Of a stretch of DNA of 64,000 nt, positions 13,055 to 18,041 are shown one piece after another. Source of the stretch: Synechococcus sp. NOUM97013 (GTDB taxonomy: Bacteria > Cyanobacteriota > Cyanobacteriia > PCC-6307 > Cyanobiaceae); contig NZ_CP047941.1 of NCBI RefSeq assembly GCF_014279815.1, positions 1,240,001 through 1,304,000 of the forward strand. The letters are read 5' to 3'. The notes under the pieces were generated by a model that was not told the origin of the DNA, did not search any database, and saw only the letters and a list, made by a program, of their open reading frames with translations. A program made the translations under genes and the position numbers. Every line of letters starts with the position of its first letter. Position 1 is the stretch's first letter.

Positions 13055-13354
13055 TCAGCCTTCACCGGCAAGTCGACAGGCGCGACGTCCAATGGCTGTG
13101 GCGTAGGCACGATCCACAGGACCCGACATCGGACTGAGCTGACCAGCTCGGCAGTTCATCACCACCTTTTCGCGATGGCCGAGCTGATCATTCAGTTTGA
13201 GCACCAGCTGCCAGTGGTTCTTGGCACTTCGAGTGATGTCATCGGCGCAGACAGGACCGGTGCAAAGACCTGGAGAGGCTTCAACACGCAGGGGCGAGAC
13301 CAGTCCCGTGAGCAGACCAAACAACAGTGCGGCCAAGGTGAGGACTCGCATCAT
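13055..13354 (-). CDS. Small secreted cysteine-containing protein
   Basis: A 98-99 residue protein with a classic signal peptide: [20 protein letters not shown], then a likely cleavage site after VEA. The mature part has four cysteines (LCTG, VCAD, NCRAG, ACRLAG), enough for two disulfides, and looks like a small periplasmic or lumenal protein. I recognise no family. Two adjacent ATG codons (13354 and 13351) overlap the TGA stop of uvrC, and the gene ends 2 bases before the photolyase-like gene, so it is embedded in a DNA-repair transcript. No function can be assigned. Confidence 0.6.
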
Positions 13355-15312
13355 GGCTGTGACGATCCTGGGTCGTGAGTGGGCCCATCCTGCTCTGCAT
13401 CCTCATCGGGGTGAAAAAAACGGCGAATATCCCGTGCCAAGGCCAAGCCGACTCCTGGAGCCTGAGCGAGGGTTTCAACTGTGGCCAGTTGGATGGCATC
13501 AATCGAATGAAAGTGGGCAAGCAGGTCTTTGACCCGCTTGGGACCAACGCCGGGGATGTCTGATAACCGCGAACGCTTCATGCGCTCACCCCGCTGCTGA
13601 CGGTGAAAACTCACAGCGAACCGGTGCGCTTCATCTCGCAGGCGCCGGAGCAGAGCCACCCCAAGTTGATCGGGCTCACTGTCGAGCGGCTGACTTTCCC
13701 CTGGCATGAAGATCTCTTCACGCTGCTTGGCCAGGGAACACACATTGAGATCTTGATGCAGGTCGAGCTCCCGCAACGCCTCCATCACGGCAGACAACTG
13801 ACCCTTGCCACCGTCGATCATCACCACATCAGGCCAGTCGTTGAGGCCATCGGTCTGCAGGGCACTACCGCCCTTGTGACGCAGTGCACCGAGATCAACG
13901 CCATCAGCCTTCGCCCTGGCCCAACGCCGGAAACGACGGCGCATGATCTCCGCCATCGCCATGAAGTCATCGCTGTGTCCGGCTCGGATGCTGCTGCTGC
14001 GGATCTTGTATTTGCGGTAGTGCTGCTTGGCAGGAAGCCCATCGATAAACACCACTTGGGATGCCACTGCGTCGCTGCCTTGGATGTGACTGATGTCGTA
14101 GCCCTCGATTCGACGCGGTGGAATGGGGAGTTCCAACAATTGCGCTAGATCCTCCGTGGCCAGGGCCTGCTGTTCCTGACTCTGCTTGGCACGCTGAAGC
14201 TCGTAGTCGGCATTGCGCTGCACCAGATCGATCAGATCCGCTTTCTGACGTTGCTTGGGGCAATGGATCTGCACCCTGCGCTCTCGCTGCTCAGTGAGCC
14301 ACTCCTCCAGCAGGAGTTGCTGATGGAGTGGATGTTGCACCAGCAATTCCGGTGGAATTTCCACCGCATCCACCTGGCTGTAGTGCTCTTCAATCACCCT
14401 CTGAAGAATCAGGCCAGGTTCCTGACCCGAGGCATCGGCCATGTATCCCAGTCGGCCGACAAGCTTGCCGGCTCGCATCTGAAACAACTGAACAGCCGCG
14501 AGCCGCTCATCCGCAGCCATGGCAATCACATCCCGACTGACCGATGAGTCGGCGATACTCATCTTCTGATCTGCGGTGAGTTGATCCAGTCCCTGCAGTT
14601 GATCACGCACCTTTGCGGCGGCTTCGAAATCCAGCCGCTCGGCATAGCGATCCATTTGTTCATGCAAAAGGGTCTGCAGTTCATCACTGCGGCCCTGAAA
14701 CACCATGGCCACCTTGCGCAGGGTGCGGTGATAGTCCTCGGAGCTGATTTTCTCCTGGCAAACCCCTGGACACCGGCCGATGTTGTAGTTCAGACAGGTG
14801 CGGTCCTGGTGCAGTGGTCGAGGTCGCTGCCTCAGCGGAAACACTCGCTTCACAAGGAACAAGGTGCGCCGCAAAAGCCCTACATCGACATAGGGCCCGT
14901 AAAAGCGATCGAGTGGACTGCGAAACCGTCGGCGCCGGGTGATGAAGATCCTTGGATAAGCCTCGCTCCAGGTGATGCAGAGATAGGGATATTTTTTGTC
15001 GTCTTTCAACAGCACATTGAAGTGGGGCTGCTGGTTTTTGATCAGATTGGCCTCCAACGCGAGGGCTTCGGCCTCGCTATCAGTGACGATGAATTCAATC
15101 TCACAGATCTGACGCACCATCAAACGAATGCGCGGGCTCAGGTCATGCCGGCTTCGGAAGTAGCTGCGCACACGGCTGCGCAGGCTTTTGGATTTGCCCA
15201 CGTACAGCAGACGATCCTCGGCATCCCGCATCAGGTAACACCCCGGTTCCGTCGGGATTTCCTTCAGGCGTCGTTCGAGGCGATCCGGTTGCTCGAGCAA
15301 AGGGGACTGCAT
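13351..15312 (-). CDS. uvrC: Excinuclease ABC subunit C
   Basis: UvrC makes the two incisions of nucleotide excision repair together with UvrA and UvrB. The 653-residue chain has the GIY-YIG-type nuclease at the N terminus ([20 protein letters not shown]), the UVR helix for UvrB binding ([20 protein letters not shown] near residue 215), the RNase H-like C-terminal nuclease ([26 protein letters not shown]) and paired helix-hairpin-helix DNA-binding motifs near the end ([23 protein letters not shown]). Length is typical. It begins the six-gene minus-strand run and diverges from coaD across about 60 bases. Confidence 0.97.
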
Positions 15313-15374: not shown

Positions 15375-15872
15375 ATGAAAGCGCTTTATCCAGGCAGCTT
15401 CGATCCGCTGACGCTGGGGCATCTTGATCTGATTGAACGGGGTGCCTCTCTCGTGGATGAGCTGGTAGTGGCTGTCTTGCAGAACCCTGGGAAATCACCC
15501 ACTTTCCCCTTGGAACAGCGTCTCCACCAGATCCGTGTATCAACGGCCCATCTCAGCAATGTCACGGTGACAAGCTTTGACGGACTGACCGTTGAGTGCG
15601 CACGTCGTCATCGTGCTCGGCTGATTCTGCGCGGACTTCGCGCCATGAGCGATTTCGAGTACGAACTTCAAATTGCCCACACCAACCGATCTCTCGACCC
15701 GGATTTCGAAACAATTTTCCTCAGCACCGCTGCCCACTACAGCTTTTTGAGCAGTTCAGTGGTCAAGGAAGTGGCACGATTTGGTGGATCTGTGGATCAC
15801 ATGGTGCCTCCGGTGGTGGCGGAGGACCTCGGAAGGTTCTTTAATTCGGCTTTCCATCCCCCGTCGCGATGA
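15375..15872 (+). CDS. coaD: Phosphopantetheine adenylyltransferase
   Basis: CoaD joins ATP and 4'-phosphopantetheine to form dephospho-CoA, the penultimate step of coenzyme A synthesis. The 165-residue chain starts [20 protein letters not shown] with the TxGH nucleotidyltransferase motif, has [14 protein letters not shown] in the middle and [14 protein letters not shown] towards the end, all as in the family. I start at the ATG at 15375; the frame remains open 13 codons upstream but that part is not family-like. The stop overlaps the next gene's start by four bases (ATGA). Confidence 0.96.
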
Positions 15873-16798
15873 GCGAGATCCGGTTCTCCGTAATCGACCA
15901 GCTCGATCAGCTCGAGGAAATCGTGCTGGAGGGTAGTCGCATTCCCTTCAGTGGCGGGAGGCTCGTCAACGAGCAGGACGCCGTTGAGCTTCTTGATGCC
16001 GTCCGTGAAGCGATGCCGGGTCAGGTGGCTGAAGCCGATCAACTGCTGCAGAAGCGCGATGACTTCATCGCCACAGCCCGCAGTCAGGCGGATGAGATCG
16101 TCAACACAGCGCAGCAGCAGCGTGACCAACTGCTTGCCCAGGCCTCCATCCGTCAGGAAGCGGAACGTCAGGCCGCCGAAATGCGCGAACAGATCCGGCA
16201 GCAGTGTGAGCAACTGCTCCAGACCACCCGTCAGCAGGCTGCGCAGATGGAACAAGAGATGCAGACCAAGCAGGCTCAGCTTGAACAGCAGTTCTCCACA
16301 CGCCGTCAGCAACTAGAGCAGGAAGCTCTGCAGCGCAGGCAGCAGCTCGATCAGGAGGCGATCGAACTCAAACGCCAGTTAAGCGAGCAGCATGAACGCA
16401 ACCGTCAGCAATCACTCCAGGAGCTCGAGCTCATTCGTCAGGAAGGTCTGAGGATTCAGAAGGAAGCCCAGGCTGAAGCTGAGCGGCTCCAGCAGGATGC
16501 TTTGCAATTCCGTCAACAGACTCAGCAGCAGTGTGAATCGCTGATCCAACGCAGCCGAAAAGAAGCCTCCACGGTTCAGGAAGGGGCCAATCGCTACGCC
16601 GAACAAACGTTGGGAGAACTGGAGCAGCGACTCAAGGAGATGGCTCAGGTTGTGTTGGCCGGACGGCAGGAACTGATCAAGATCCAGACCGGTCAGACAG
16701 TGTCCAGCACTGCTGAAACCAATGACAGCAAAACCGTGCCGATCAGCCGGGCACGTCGGGCTGCATCTCGGCTGCGTCAGATGAAGGGCACGGGCTGA
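15869..16798 (+). CDS. SepIVA/DivIVA-like coiled-coil protein
   Basis: A 309-residue Gln/Glu/Arg-rich protein. Residues about 8-60 form a conserved head ([19 protein letters not shown], then [20 protein letters not shown]). A long coiled coil follows from about 60 to 275, and the tail is basic ([14 protein letters not shown]). From memory of the mycobacterial cell-division factor SepIVA, the head shows the same spacing: a leading LDEL, a small Gly-rich turn, LIDDI, an AIPGEL-like motif and then RD. The ATG overlaps the coaD stop (ATGA), and a similar coiled-coil gene sits beside coaD in Actinobacteria. A septation or envelope-growth role is inference; a generic coiled-coil protein is the alternative. 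Its 3' end overlaps dacB by 56 bases. Confidence 0.65.
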
Positions 16799-18041
16799 AC
16801 CGTTGTACGGATCGGAGGATCTGCCCCATCACCGTGTTGGGGTAACTCGATCCGTTGGAAATCATCGCCACGTAGCGCGGCCCATCCTGCGTTTGCAGAA
16901 ATCCGGAGATGCTGCGCACACCACTGATGGTTCCAGTCTTTCCGCGGAATTTTCCATCCAAAATGGTTCCGCGATAGAGATTGCGGAGGGTTCCCCGTTG
17001 TCCTGCAATGGCCATGGACGCCTGGTAGTAGGGCGCGAAAGGATGTTGGTCCATGCGCATCAGCAGGGCTGCGATGGTGCGACTGGTGACCCTGTTGTTG
17101 CGAGACAGGCCACTTCCGTCAGCCACCCGCAGTCCTTGGATTGGCAGCCCCTGCTCGAACATCCAGCGTTCGGTGGCTCTGGACGCTGCATTCACATCCC
17201 AGAGGCCGGAAGCCTGTCGCATCAACACTTCTGCGGTGAAGTTGTGGCTTTCCGTGTTGGCCAGGCTGAGCAGCGCGTGCATGGGTGCGGAGGCTTCCTC
17301 ATGCAAAACCACGCTGTTGTCGTCATCCATTGACAGGGGCTCAGCCATGGGTTGCCCCCTTTCGATGCTCACTGAGCCACCACGGCGTGAAACCTCTTTG
17401 CGAAACAGAACCTGGAGACGGTTGTAGGGGTCGCTGACGGCTCCACCCACGGCATTGCTGGTTAAGGCGAGACGTGTGATCGGAGCGCCGTAGGCATAAC
17501 CACGATCGGCCGGATGCCAGTCCGCTGGCCACCAGTTGGCACGTGGTTCCTCACGGACCATCAACTTGACGTCTAGTGGAGATCCACCCATGGATCCGCC
17601 CTGACGCAGAGCTGCCATCGCAAAACGCTGCAAGCCGGCGATTCCGAGGTCTGGATCACCCTCTCCGTTCAGTTCAAGGGATCCATCAGGACGCTGGATT
17701 AAGCGGGTCTTGAGACGGAAGTCGGGGCCCAGACGATCGAGCGCAAAGGCGGTACTGATCAACTTCTGATTGGAGGCCGGAATCCTGGGAACGCCACCAT
17801 TCACATCACCCAGGATGTCGCCGTCACTGTTGAGCACCGTGACGGACCACACACGGGCTTCAGCACCTAGATCAGCACGAAGGGCTTCGGCAAGGGCCGG
17901 ACAGGGTCTCCCCGGTTGAAGAGTTGGAAGCGGTTGCTCGGTTTCCGGCGGCGGCGGCGCAATCAACGGCAAACCCTCGGCGCGCACCGTTTGGGCTGCC
18001 AGCGGCAGCAGCAGGGCCAGTGAAAAGCCGAGCGACTTCAT
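16743..18041 (-). CDS. dacB: D-alanyl-D-alanine carboxypeptidase/endopeptidase (PBP4 type)
   Basis: A 432-residue low-molecular-weight penicillin-binding protein of the S13 family, which trims or cleaves peptide crosslinks in the periplasm. It has a signal peptide (SLGFSLALLLPLAAQTVRAEG), the serine motif SNQKL within RIPASNQKLISTAF near residue 90, the SxN-type motif in DGSGLSRNNRVTS, and KTG in RGKTGTISGVRS. Length fits the family. The start overlaps the DUF4330 gene by four bases. The stop lies inside the end of the convergent coiled-coil gene, so the last 18 or so codons of both are read on opposite strands. Confidence 0.93.
   Translation of the reverse strand: MKSLGFSLALLLPLAAQTVRAEGLPLIAPPPPETEQPLPTLQPGRPCPALAEALRADLGAEARVWSVTVLNSDGDILGDVNGGVPRIPASNQKLISTAFALDRLGPDFRLKTRLIQRPDGSLELNGEGDPDLGIAGLQRFAMAALRQGGSMGGSPLDVKLMVREEPRANWWPADWHPADRGYAYGAPITRLALTSNAVGGAVSDPYNRLQVLFRKEVSRRGGSVSIERGQPMAEPLSMDDDNSVVLHEEASAPMHALLSLANTESHNFTAEVLMRQASGLWDVNAASRATERWMFEQGLPIQGLRVADGSGLSRNNRVTSRTIAALLMRMDQHPFAPYYQASMAIAGQRGTLRNLYRGTILDGKFRGKTGTISGVRSISGFLQTQDGPRYVAMISNGSSYPNTVMGQILRSVQRFSPCPSSDAAEMQPDVPG

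Follow-up and report, generated by a model that had tools for sequence, protein, structure and literature searches.

Cdv3, a division protein of cyanobacteria, and SepIVA of mycobacteria are one family of proteins, held together by a shared anatomy and gene order and standing apart from DivIVA. It is highly probable that the gene directly behind coaD in the DNA studied here (the window, which is the whole stretch of 64,000 nucleotides) is cdv3, as judged by position, copy number and published locus tags, and that Cdv3 is in the same family as mycobacterial SepIVA. A sequence-only reading of the window had proposed a possible SepIVA homologue in cyanobacteria, which are not normally credited with one; the kinship has stood, but the gene itself is not new, since it is very probably cdv3, a published cyanobacterial division gene. 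What appears to be new, within the open-licence literature searched, is that Cdv3 and SepIVA are placed together in a single scaffold family, linked to coaD and separate from DivIVA; among the open-licence papers none was found that joins the two.

The features of the locus are collected in Table 1. An open reading frame for a 309-residue coiled-coil protein is present where the sequence-only reading had placed it, and its start does lie inside the coaD stop codon (ATGA). With uvrC divergent upstream and a dacB-like gene convergent downstream, coaD and cdv3 appear to form a unit of two genes. Among 24 congener loci (the window locus included), 14 retain the four-base overlap, whereas the gap between the two genes is 10 nt in seven of them and 5 nt in one; the remaining two were missed by the parsing pattern and have the printed bases TGATG. 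Translational coupling of coaD and cdv3 via ATGA would be possible. The promoter/terminator scan gave no promoter-like sites (0.5 in the shuffles) and four terminator-like sites (1.4 in the shuffles, sd 1.2). In a protein search of the window genome the 309-residue protein itself was the only family match.

Table 1. Features of the coaD-cdv3 locus and parts of the encoded 309-residue protein (positions within the window)
Feature	Position	Strand	Basis
uvrC, divergent from coaD	13351..15312	-	Pfam UvrC domains
coaD, phosphopantetheine adenylyltransferase; ATG at 15375, TGA ends at 15872	15375..15872	+	Pfam CTP_transf_like, TIGR01510
cdv3/sepIVA-family gene, coiled-coil protein of 309 aa, plus stop	15869..16798	+	Family by profiles and alignment
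Stop/start overlap (ATGA) of coaD and the 309-aa gene, 4 bases	15869..15872	+	Read from the sequence
Conserved head, residues ~1-87: helix, short loop with RIPFSGG, start of long helix	15869..16129	+	Alignments; AF2 model
Long coiled coil, exceeding that of most other aligned cyanobacterial rows by ~87 residues	16130..16573	+	Alignment; AF2 helix
Conserved C-terminal module, residues ~236-272, YAxxxLxxxE...GR	16574..16684	+	Invariant alignment columns; hhalign to actinobacterial C-terminal module
dacB-like S13 D-Ala-D-Ala carboxypeptidase, convergent, overlaps the 3' end of the 309-aa gene by 56 bases	16743..18041	-	Pfam Peptidase_S13

For residues 1–100 AF2 predicts a helix (2–21), a loop with two short strands and then a long helix, with a mean pLDDT of 87.1 in the best of five models and of 68–76 in the other four; the full-length model is mostly one long helix (50–273), the loop and the tail being of low confidence. 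The motif order that had been noticed in the letters alone was confirmed: the head contains a stretch of 27 residues (letters not shown) and KRD, and near the C-terminus a stretch of 11 residues (letters not shown) precedes AGRQEL. A search pattern for the C-terminal module, which is too strict, finds 46 of 63 cyanobacterial and 43 of 48 actinobacterial rows; in 20 of the 22 misses the Y and the helix are kept as judged by eye, and the Y is lost in L158 and L165. From its cyanobacterial relatives in other families the window protein differs by its longer coil (about 87 residues) and by being without an MLR extension; such an extension (MLR..., often MLRQD) stands ahead of the head in 10 of 13 genomes of these families (L025–L043).

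The coil is rich in Q, E and R and has weak matches to many coil families. When the 309-residue protein was scanned against Pfam and NCBIfam, only weak matches were returned, none over the cut-off; with seven relatives the Pfam scan gave one match over the cut-off (V-ATPase_G_2 on the coil of the M. gordonae protein, 30 bits with a cut-off of 28) and the NCBIfam scan gave none. Searches of PDB sequences with both head profiles also found only weak matches (best E 0.0014 and 0.00087), which include designed proteins and ATP-synthase coils, and a fold search of the PDB with the AF2 head model yielded nothing at E ≤ 0.001. The best looser row of the fold search, a prefoldin chain (Z 6.2, rmsd 3.6, 82 residues aligned), is no closer than helical arrangements commonly are; this search was uninformative, and the absence of DivIVA from its rows is no evidence either way.

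A sequence taken to be that of mycobacterial SepIVA served as bait. The bait led to 80 Mycobacterium/Mycobacteriaceae loci, collected independently of the cyanobacterial head profile (18 rows, cyanobacteria only). That these loci are sepIVA is backed by the length of the products (245–247 residues; 246 are given for SepIVA in PMC7654743) and by gene order, which at locus L087 is sepIVA, yceD, RNase III (Pfam) and an Fpg-like gene (by eye), the mycobacterial order given in PMC2734929 being Rv2927c, Rv2926c, rnc, fpg. When the cyanobacterial head profile was run over five whole mycobacterial genomes, sepIVA was the single strong match in each of the five (E 1.4e-15 to 1.3e-14), and the next-best match anywhere in them had an E of 0.12. 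This search is the cleanest test because the sepIVA loci had been collected without the profile. In blastp the head of the window protein aligns without gaps to the M. gordonae protein over 75 residues, of which 34.7% are identical (E 4e-15 with low-complexity regions masked), and by blastp the M. gordonae protein is 28–35% identical to the window protein.

The likeness extends far beyond these genomes. At E ≤ 0.1 the cyanobacterial head profile matches 145 of 149 Actinomycetota genomes. In the reverse direction a profile made from the heads of 20 actinobacterial genes, which had been gathered through the cyanobacterial profile or through coaD, matches 142 of 146 Cyanobacteriota genomes, every best E being ≤3e-11, and four are without a match. 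Comparison of the two head profiles by hhalign gives a probability of 99.6 and an E of 1.4e-23 over 86 columns; at full length the E is 2.8e-25 and the alignment spans the C-terminal YAD..L..E...GR module. The head and the C-terminal modules of SepIVA and of the window family thus align colinearly, with Y[AV]D..L..E...GR common to both. It should be noted that, because the actinobacterial rows were gathered via the cyanobacterial profile or coaD, neither the reverse search nor the hhalign value counts as fully independent, whereas the search of the five mycobacterial genomes and the blastp comparison with the M. gordonae protein are independent of that gathering. The window protein finds a relative in 39 of 40 genomes (its own included), with 15 of 15 from other cyanobacterial families, and the sole miss is a genome that is 70% complete. 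Against the cyanobacterial profile the 20 actinobacterial heads score 49–85 bits, far above their heptad-register shuffles (n = 4000, maximum 19.2 bits), full shuffles (n = 4000, maximum 13.1 bits) and the 20 heads reversed (maximum 19.0 bits), so that the motif likeness is beyond chance. On these grounds the homology to SepIVA, which had been inferred from the order of motifs, holds.

Linkage to coaD had been set beforehand as a test, and it reaches well beyond the clade of the window. In Actinomycetota, coaD was found in 148 of 149 genomes, and in 136 of the 149 the best match among those listed lies at most 1 kb downstream of coaD on the same strand, the median gap between the matches being 56.5 nt; for this count, matches were listed for 139 of the 149 genomes. 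The presence of a similar coiled-coil gene by coaD in Actinobacteria, as the sequence-only reading had stated, is confirmed. Three of the 139 are unlinked: in M. gordonae (G040) the two genes fall on separate contigs, and in G140 and G071 they are 17 kb and 2.6 kb apart. The other ten genomes comprise four with no match at 0.1, four with an E of 0.03–0.1 and two with an E of 2.8e-9 and 3.8e-8 that ranked below the matches listed. In Cyanobacteriota the gene is coaD-linked in 133 of 146 genomes (55 of 64 in the window's class, 60 of 61 in family f36 and 18 of 21 in other families of the phylum); nine of the 142 matches are unlinked, at least four having the two genes on different contigs. Fourteen of 15 other-family cyanobacterial relatives adjoin coaD, the exception being that of G027.

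The window gene therefore has in common with most of the actinobacterial genomes searched the linkage to coaD, and in lying directly downstream of coaD it matches the non-mycobacterial sepIVA orthologues. In mycobacteria, coaD precedes sepIVA by 1.4–4.7 kb on the same strand in 38 of the 80 loci and is adjacent in none of these 38; the flank of the other 42 showed no coaD, and 10 of the 80 loci are shorter than 10 kb. At L087, one of these 42, the region upstream of sepIVA contains a gene for an AMP-binding ligase (Pfam) and an ORF that resembles a thioesterase (by eye). Two actinobacterial loci, L185 and L193, have on one strand the order RecG-like gene, RsmD-like gene, coaD, sepIVA, yceD (yceD and the RsmD-type methyltransferase of L185, Cons_hypoth95, by Pfam; the others by eye). 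The two sides differ in what comes next: yceD follows sepIVA in the two actinobacterial loci in which this was checked by Pfam, whereas the window gene is followed by dacB; this is a difference of neighbourhood and not of the protein.

Some genomes contain a second match to the head. Among the matches listed, a SepIVA-type head away from coaD is found in 11 of 149 Actinomycetota genomes; in L320–L323 (G085, G055, G109, G120) it has beside it a DnaJ-like and a MerR/HspR-like gene in all four, and a B-box-like zinc-binding gene was seen in three of the four (all by eye). In six genomes of group g73 of family f36 (G301, G313, G327, G228, G311, G253) a second weak, partial head match (E 4.5e-8 to 4.6e-5, ORFs of 124–142 residues) lies 0.12–0.40 kb from the main one, between the main gene and coaD, and is possibly a tandem duplicate.

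How the pair came to be in both phyla was considered with the help of a tree of 111 rows (134 found, identical heads dropped) and 157 columns kept, which has warnings for long branches and for odd composition in some rows. One branch parts the 63 cyanobacterial from the 48 actinobacterial rows (99/96; 98% of 200 bootstrap trees). A lateral movement of the coaD-sepIVA/cdv3 pair between the phyla instead of common descent is favored by the ease with which a two-gene unit is transferred, and it is to be judged from an unrooted tree and from head-profile searches that covered two phyla, Cyanobacteriota and Actinomycetota. It is unlikely, however, since each phylum forms one side of that single branch and since the pair is also present in same-phylum families outside the window's class (78 of 82 genomes). 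An ancient single transfer of the pair may have occurred.

Within the window's own family, cdv3 is matched in 110 of 151 genomes (78 of 95 good ones) and 41 are without it. Among the 20 of these that were listed by name, 12 are without a coaD match too and eight have one; because absence is uninformative where coaD is also missing, the raw figure of 41 of 151 overstates loss. In all of the eight with coaD (L303, L307, L308, L311, L313, L314, L316, L318; L270–L272 are from the same genomes as L313, L314 and L318) the distance from the end of coaD to the stop of the convergent dacB is −17 to +13 nt, compared with 651–934 nt in nine cdv3-bearing loci; one further cdv3-bearing locus is without a dacB match. 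The eight loci have 26–35% GC and come from assemblies of 1.1–1.9 Mb, some of them incomplete. There is thus a clean loss of cdv3 in small, low-GC, streamlined relatives, and their low GC and small size suggest that these are perhaps Prochlorococcus. MinC is kept in all six cdv3-less genomes tested, for five of which the loss was seen at the locus.

DivIVA/Wag31 (PF05103) is a coiled-coil scaffold acting at septa or poles, and its N-domain broadly resembles the helix, loop and long helix described above. This resemblance would fit Cdv3 being a divergent DivIVA whose likeness to SepIVA would come from nothing more than the DivIVA-like character of both, as would the description of Cdv3 as DivIVA-like, with low but significant similarity, in PMC7766704, PMC7381316 and PMC12203958, and the matches of M. 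gordonae SepIVA to PF05103 (27.3 bits, cut-off 28) and to NCBIfam Wag31 (E 7.5e-15, residues 60–123). Both matches are, however, in the coil, and so are the PF05103 matches of two further scanned members and those of the cdv3 genes of G039, G195 and G208 (E 0.2–0.7); in the scanned proteins, coils of ATP-synthase b and V-ATPase match about equally well. The coaD-linked gene of G156 marginally exceeds the PF05103 cut-off when the scores of its pieces are added (28.4 bits). G067 has a match to the head itself that is insignificant (E 0.27, positions 22–103), and G045 has a similar one (E 0.27); all other matches that could be placed on family genes are coil matches. The window gene is not reported by PF05103, whose three matches in the window genome are to other genes. 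A separate DivIVA over the PF05103 cut-off is present in 15 of 16 actinobacteria searched and in none of six cyanobacterial-phylum genomes; among 14 named controls S. elongatus is listed for PF05103 at E ≤ 1, the gene not being told.

Compared by hhalign with a control profile of 14 DivIVA heads from actinobacteria, the two values obtained were E 0.017 and 0.024 (probability 2.6 and 2.0%), which is not significant. Hence, of the profile comparison that had been suggested for the head, the part concerning SepIVA came out positive and the part concerning DivIVA did not. A relationship of the head to DivIVA is not supported by these profiles; the similarity of the family to DivIVA/Wag31 is a weak one in the coil, and by profile comparison the heads are unrelated. 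That Cdv3 is a divergent DivIVA is distinctly unlikely, and one Cdv3/SepIVA family apart from DivIVA is the reading followed here.

As a single cyanobacterial coiled-coil gene directly behind coaD, the window gene matches the slr0847-slr0848 arrangement of Synechocystis; there slr0848 probably shares an operon with slr0847, the coaD gene, and cells from which slr0848 is deleted are enlarged (as described in PMC5319066). Cdv3 is listed in a review as Slr0848, Synpcc7942_2006 and Alr4701 and is there called DivIVA-like but likely not a direct DivIVA homologue (PMC7766704); like the window gene it is cyanobacterial, encodes a coiled coil, lies behind coaD and occurs once per genome, the likening being by position, copy number and locus tags. 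Loss of Cdv3 leads in other cyanobacteria to elongated or giant cells (PMC7381316, PMC5319066); in S. elongatus, for example, cell length increases 5.4-fold upon deletion of cdv3 and 5.8-fold upon its overexpression (PMC7381316). The protein is described as septal, as contacting ZipN in other cyanobacteria and as bringing part of MinC to midcell (PMC12203958, PMC7766704). On the actinobacterial side, mutation of sepIVA (MSMEG_2416 in M. smegmatis) lengthens the cells of that species and makes their septa irregular (as reported in PMC7654743), whereas SepIVA of S. venezuelae (vnz26025) is given as dispensable and as polar, not septal (PMC11571769), so that function is not constant in the family. 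MinC_C is found in all 27 cyanobacterial-phylum genomes tested (the window genome included; weakly in G196) and in none of nine actinobacteria tested. The window genome and the nine actinobacteria thus differ in MinC, the recruitment of which is therefore unlikely to be a shared ancestral task. A partnership with the Min system was considered as the common function of the family and was dropped because MinC_C is absent from nine of nine actinobacteria tested.

From the literature on other cyanobacteria, the window protein probably has a role in septation. In the host organism its coil would let it assemble at the division site, docking to the membrane or to partners would be the task of the RIPFSGG loop of the head and of the C-terminal module, and the protein would help to place or mature the Z-ring. 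What the family most plausibly has in common is a scaffold that assembles itself where new wall is made and is docked through its head and tail modules. The actinobacteria tested have no MinC, so the recruitment of MinC would have been added to this older scaffold role in cyanobacteria. The ATGA overlap would keep the supply of the protein in step with CoaD.

The persistent linkage to coaD could also mean that the protein serves CoA metabolism, as a scaffold or regulator of CoaD, with only an indirect effect on division; in Synechocystis, overexpression of an sRNA silencing the coaD promoter is described as lowering CoA by ~14–16% and enlarging the cells (PMC5319066). Yet this is very unlikely in view of the septal localisation, ZipN contact and MinC recruitment published for Cdv3 (PMC7766704, PMC12203958), of the eight streamlined genomes that keep coaD without cdv3, and of the mycobacterial loci, in which the two genes are not neighbours wherever both are seen. 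That the likeness is a convergence of low-complexity coiled coils, whose Q/E/R-rich composition matches many coil families weakly, and the coaD neighbourhood a coincidence is next to impossible and in our judgement refuted by the low scores of the heptad-preserving shuffles, by the single strong match in each mycobacterial genome and by an adjacency to coaD in both phyla that was outside the search criteria.

Returning to the scaffold family, the meaning of the coaD link and the biochemical mechanism can be put only conditionally. Cdv3 and SepIVA may derive from one septal scaffold that was locked behind coaD before the phyla parted; translation of coaD would set the amount of scaffold and in this way tie the CoA supply, and with it lipid and envelope synthesis, to Z-ring maturation, and MinC recruitment would have come later in the cyanobacterial line. 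We offer this combined proposal tentatively and consider it, taken as a whole, rather doubtful.

Cdv3 matters for cyanobacterial division, and its origin has so far been ascribed to DivIVA, with doubts published in the review (PMC7766704). SepIVA matters for mycobacterial septation and is reported in PMC7654743 without a significant blastp match outside its group. If both belong to one coaD-linked family, phenotypes, partners and structures would be transferable between the two fields, the failed DivIVA comparisons would be explained, and the ancestral function of the family and its link to coaD would become testable.
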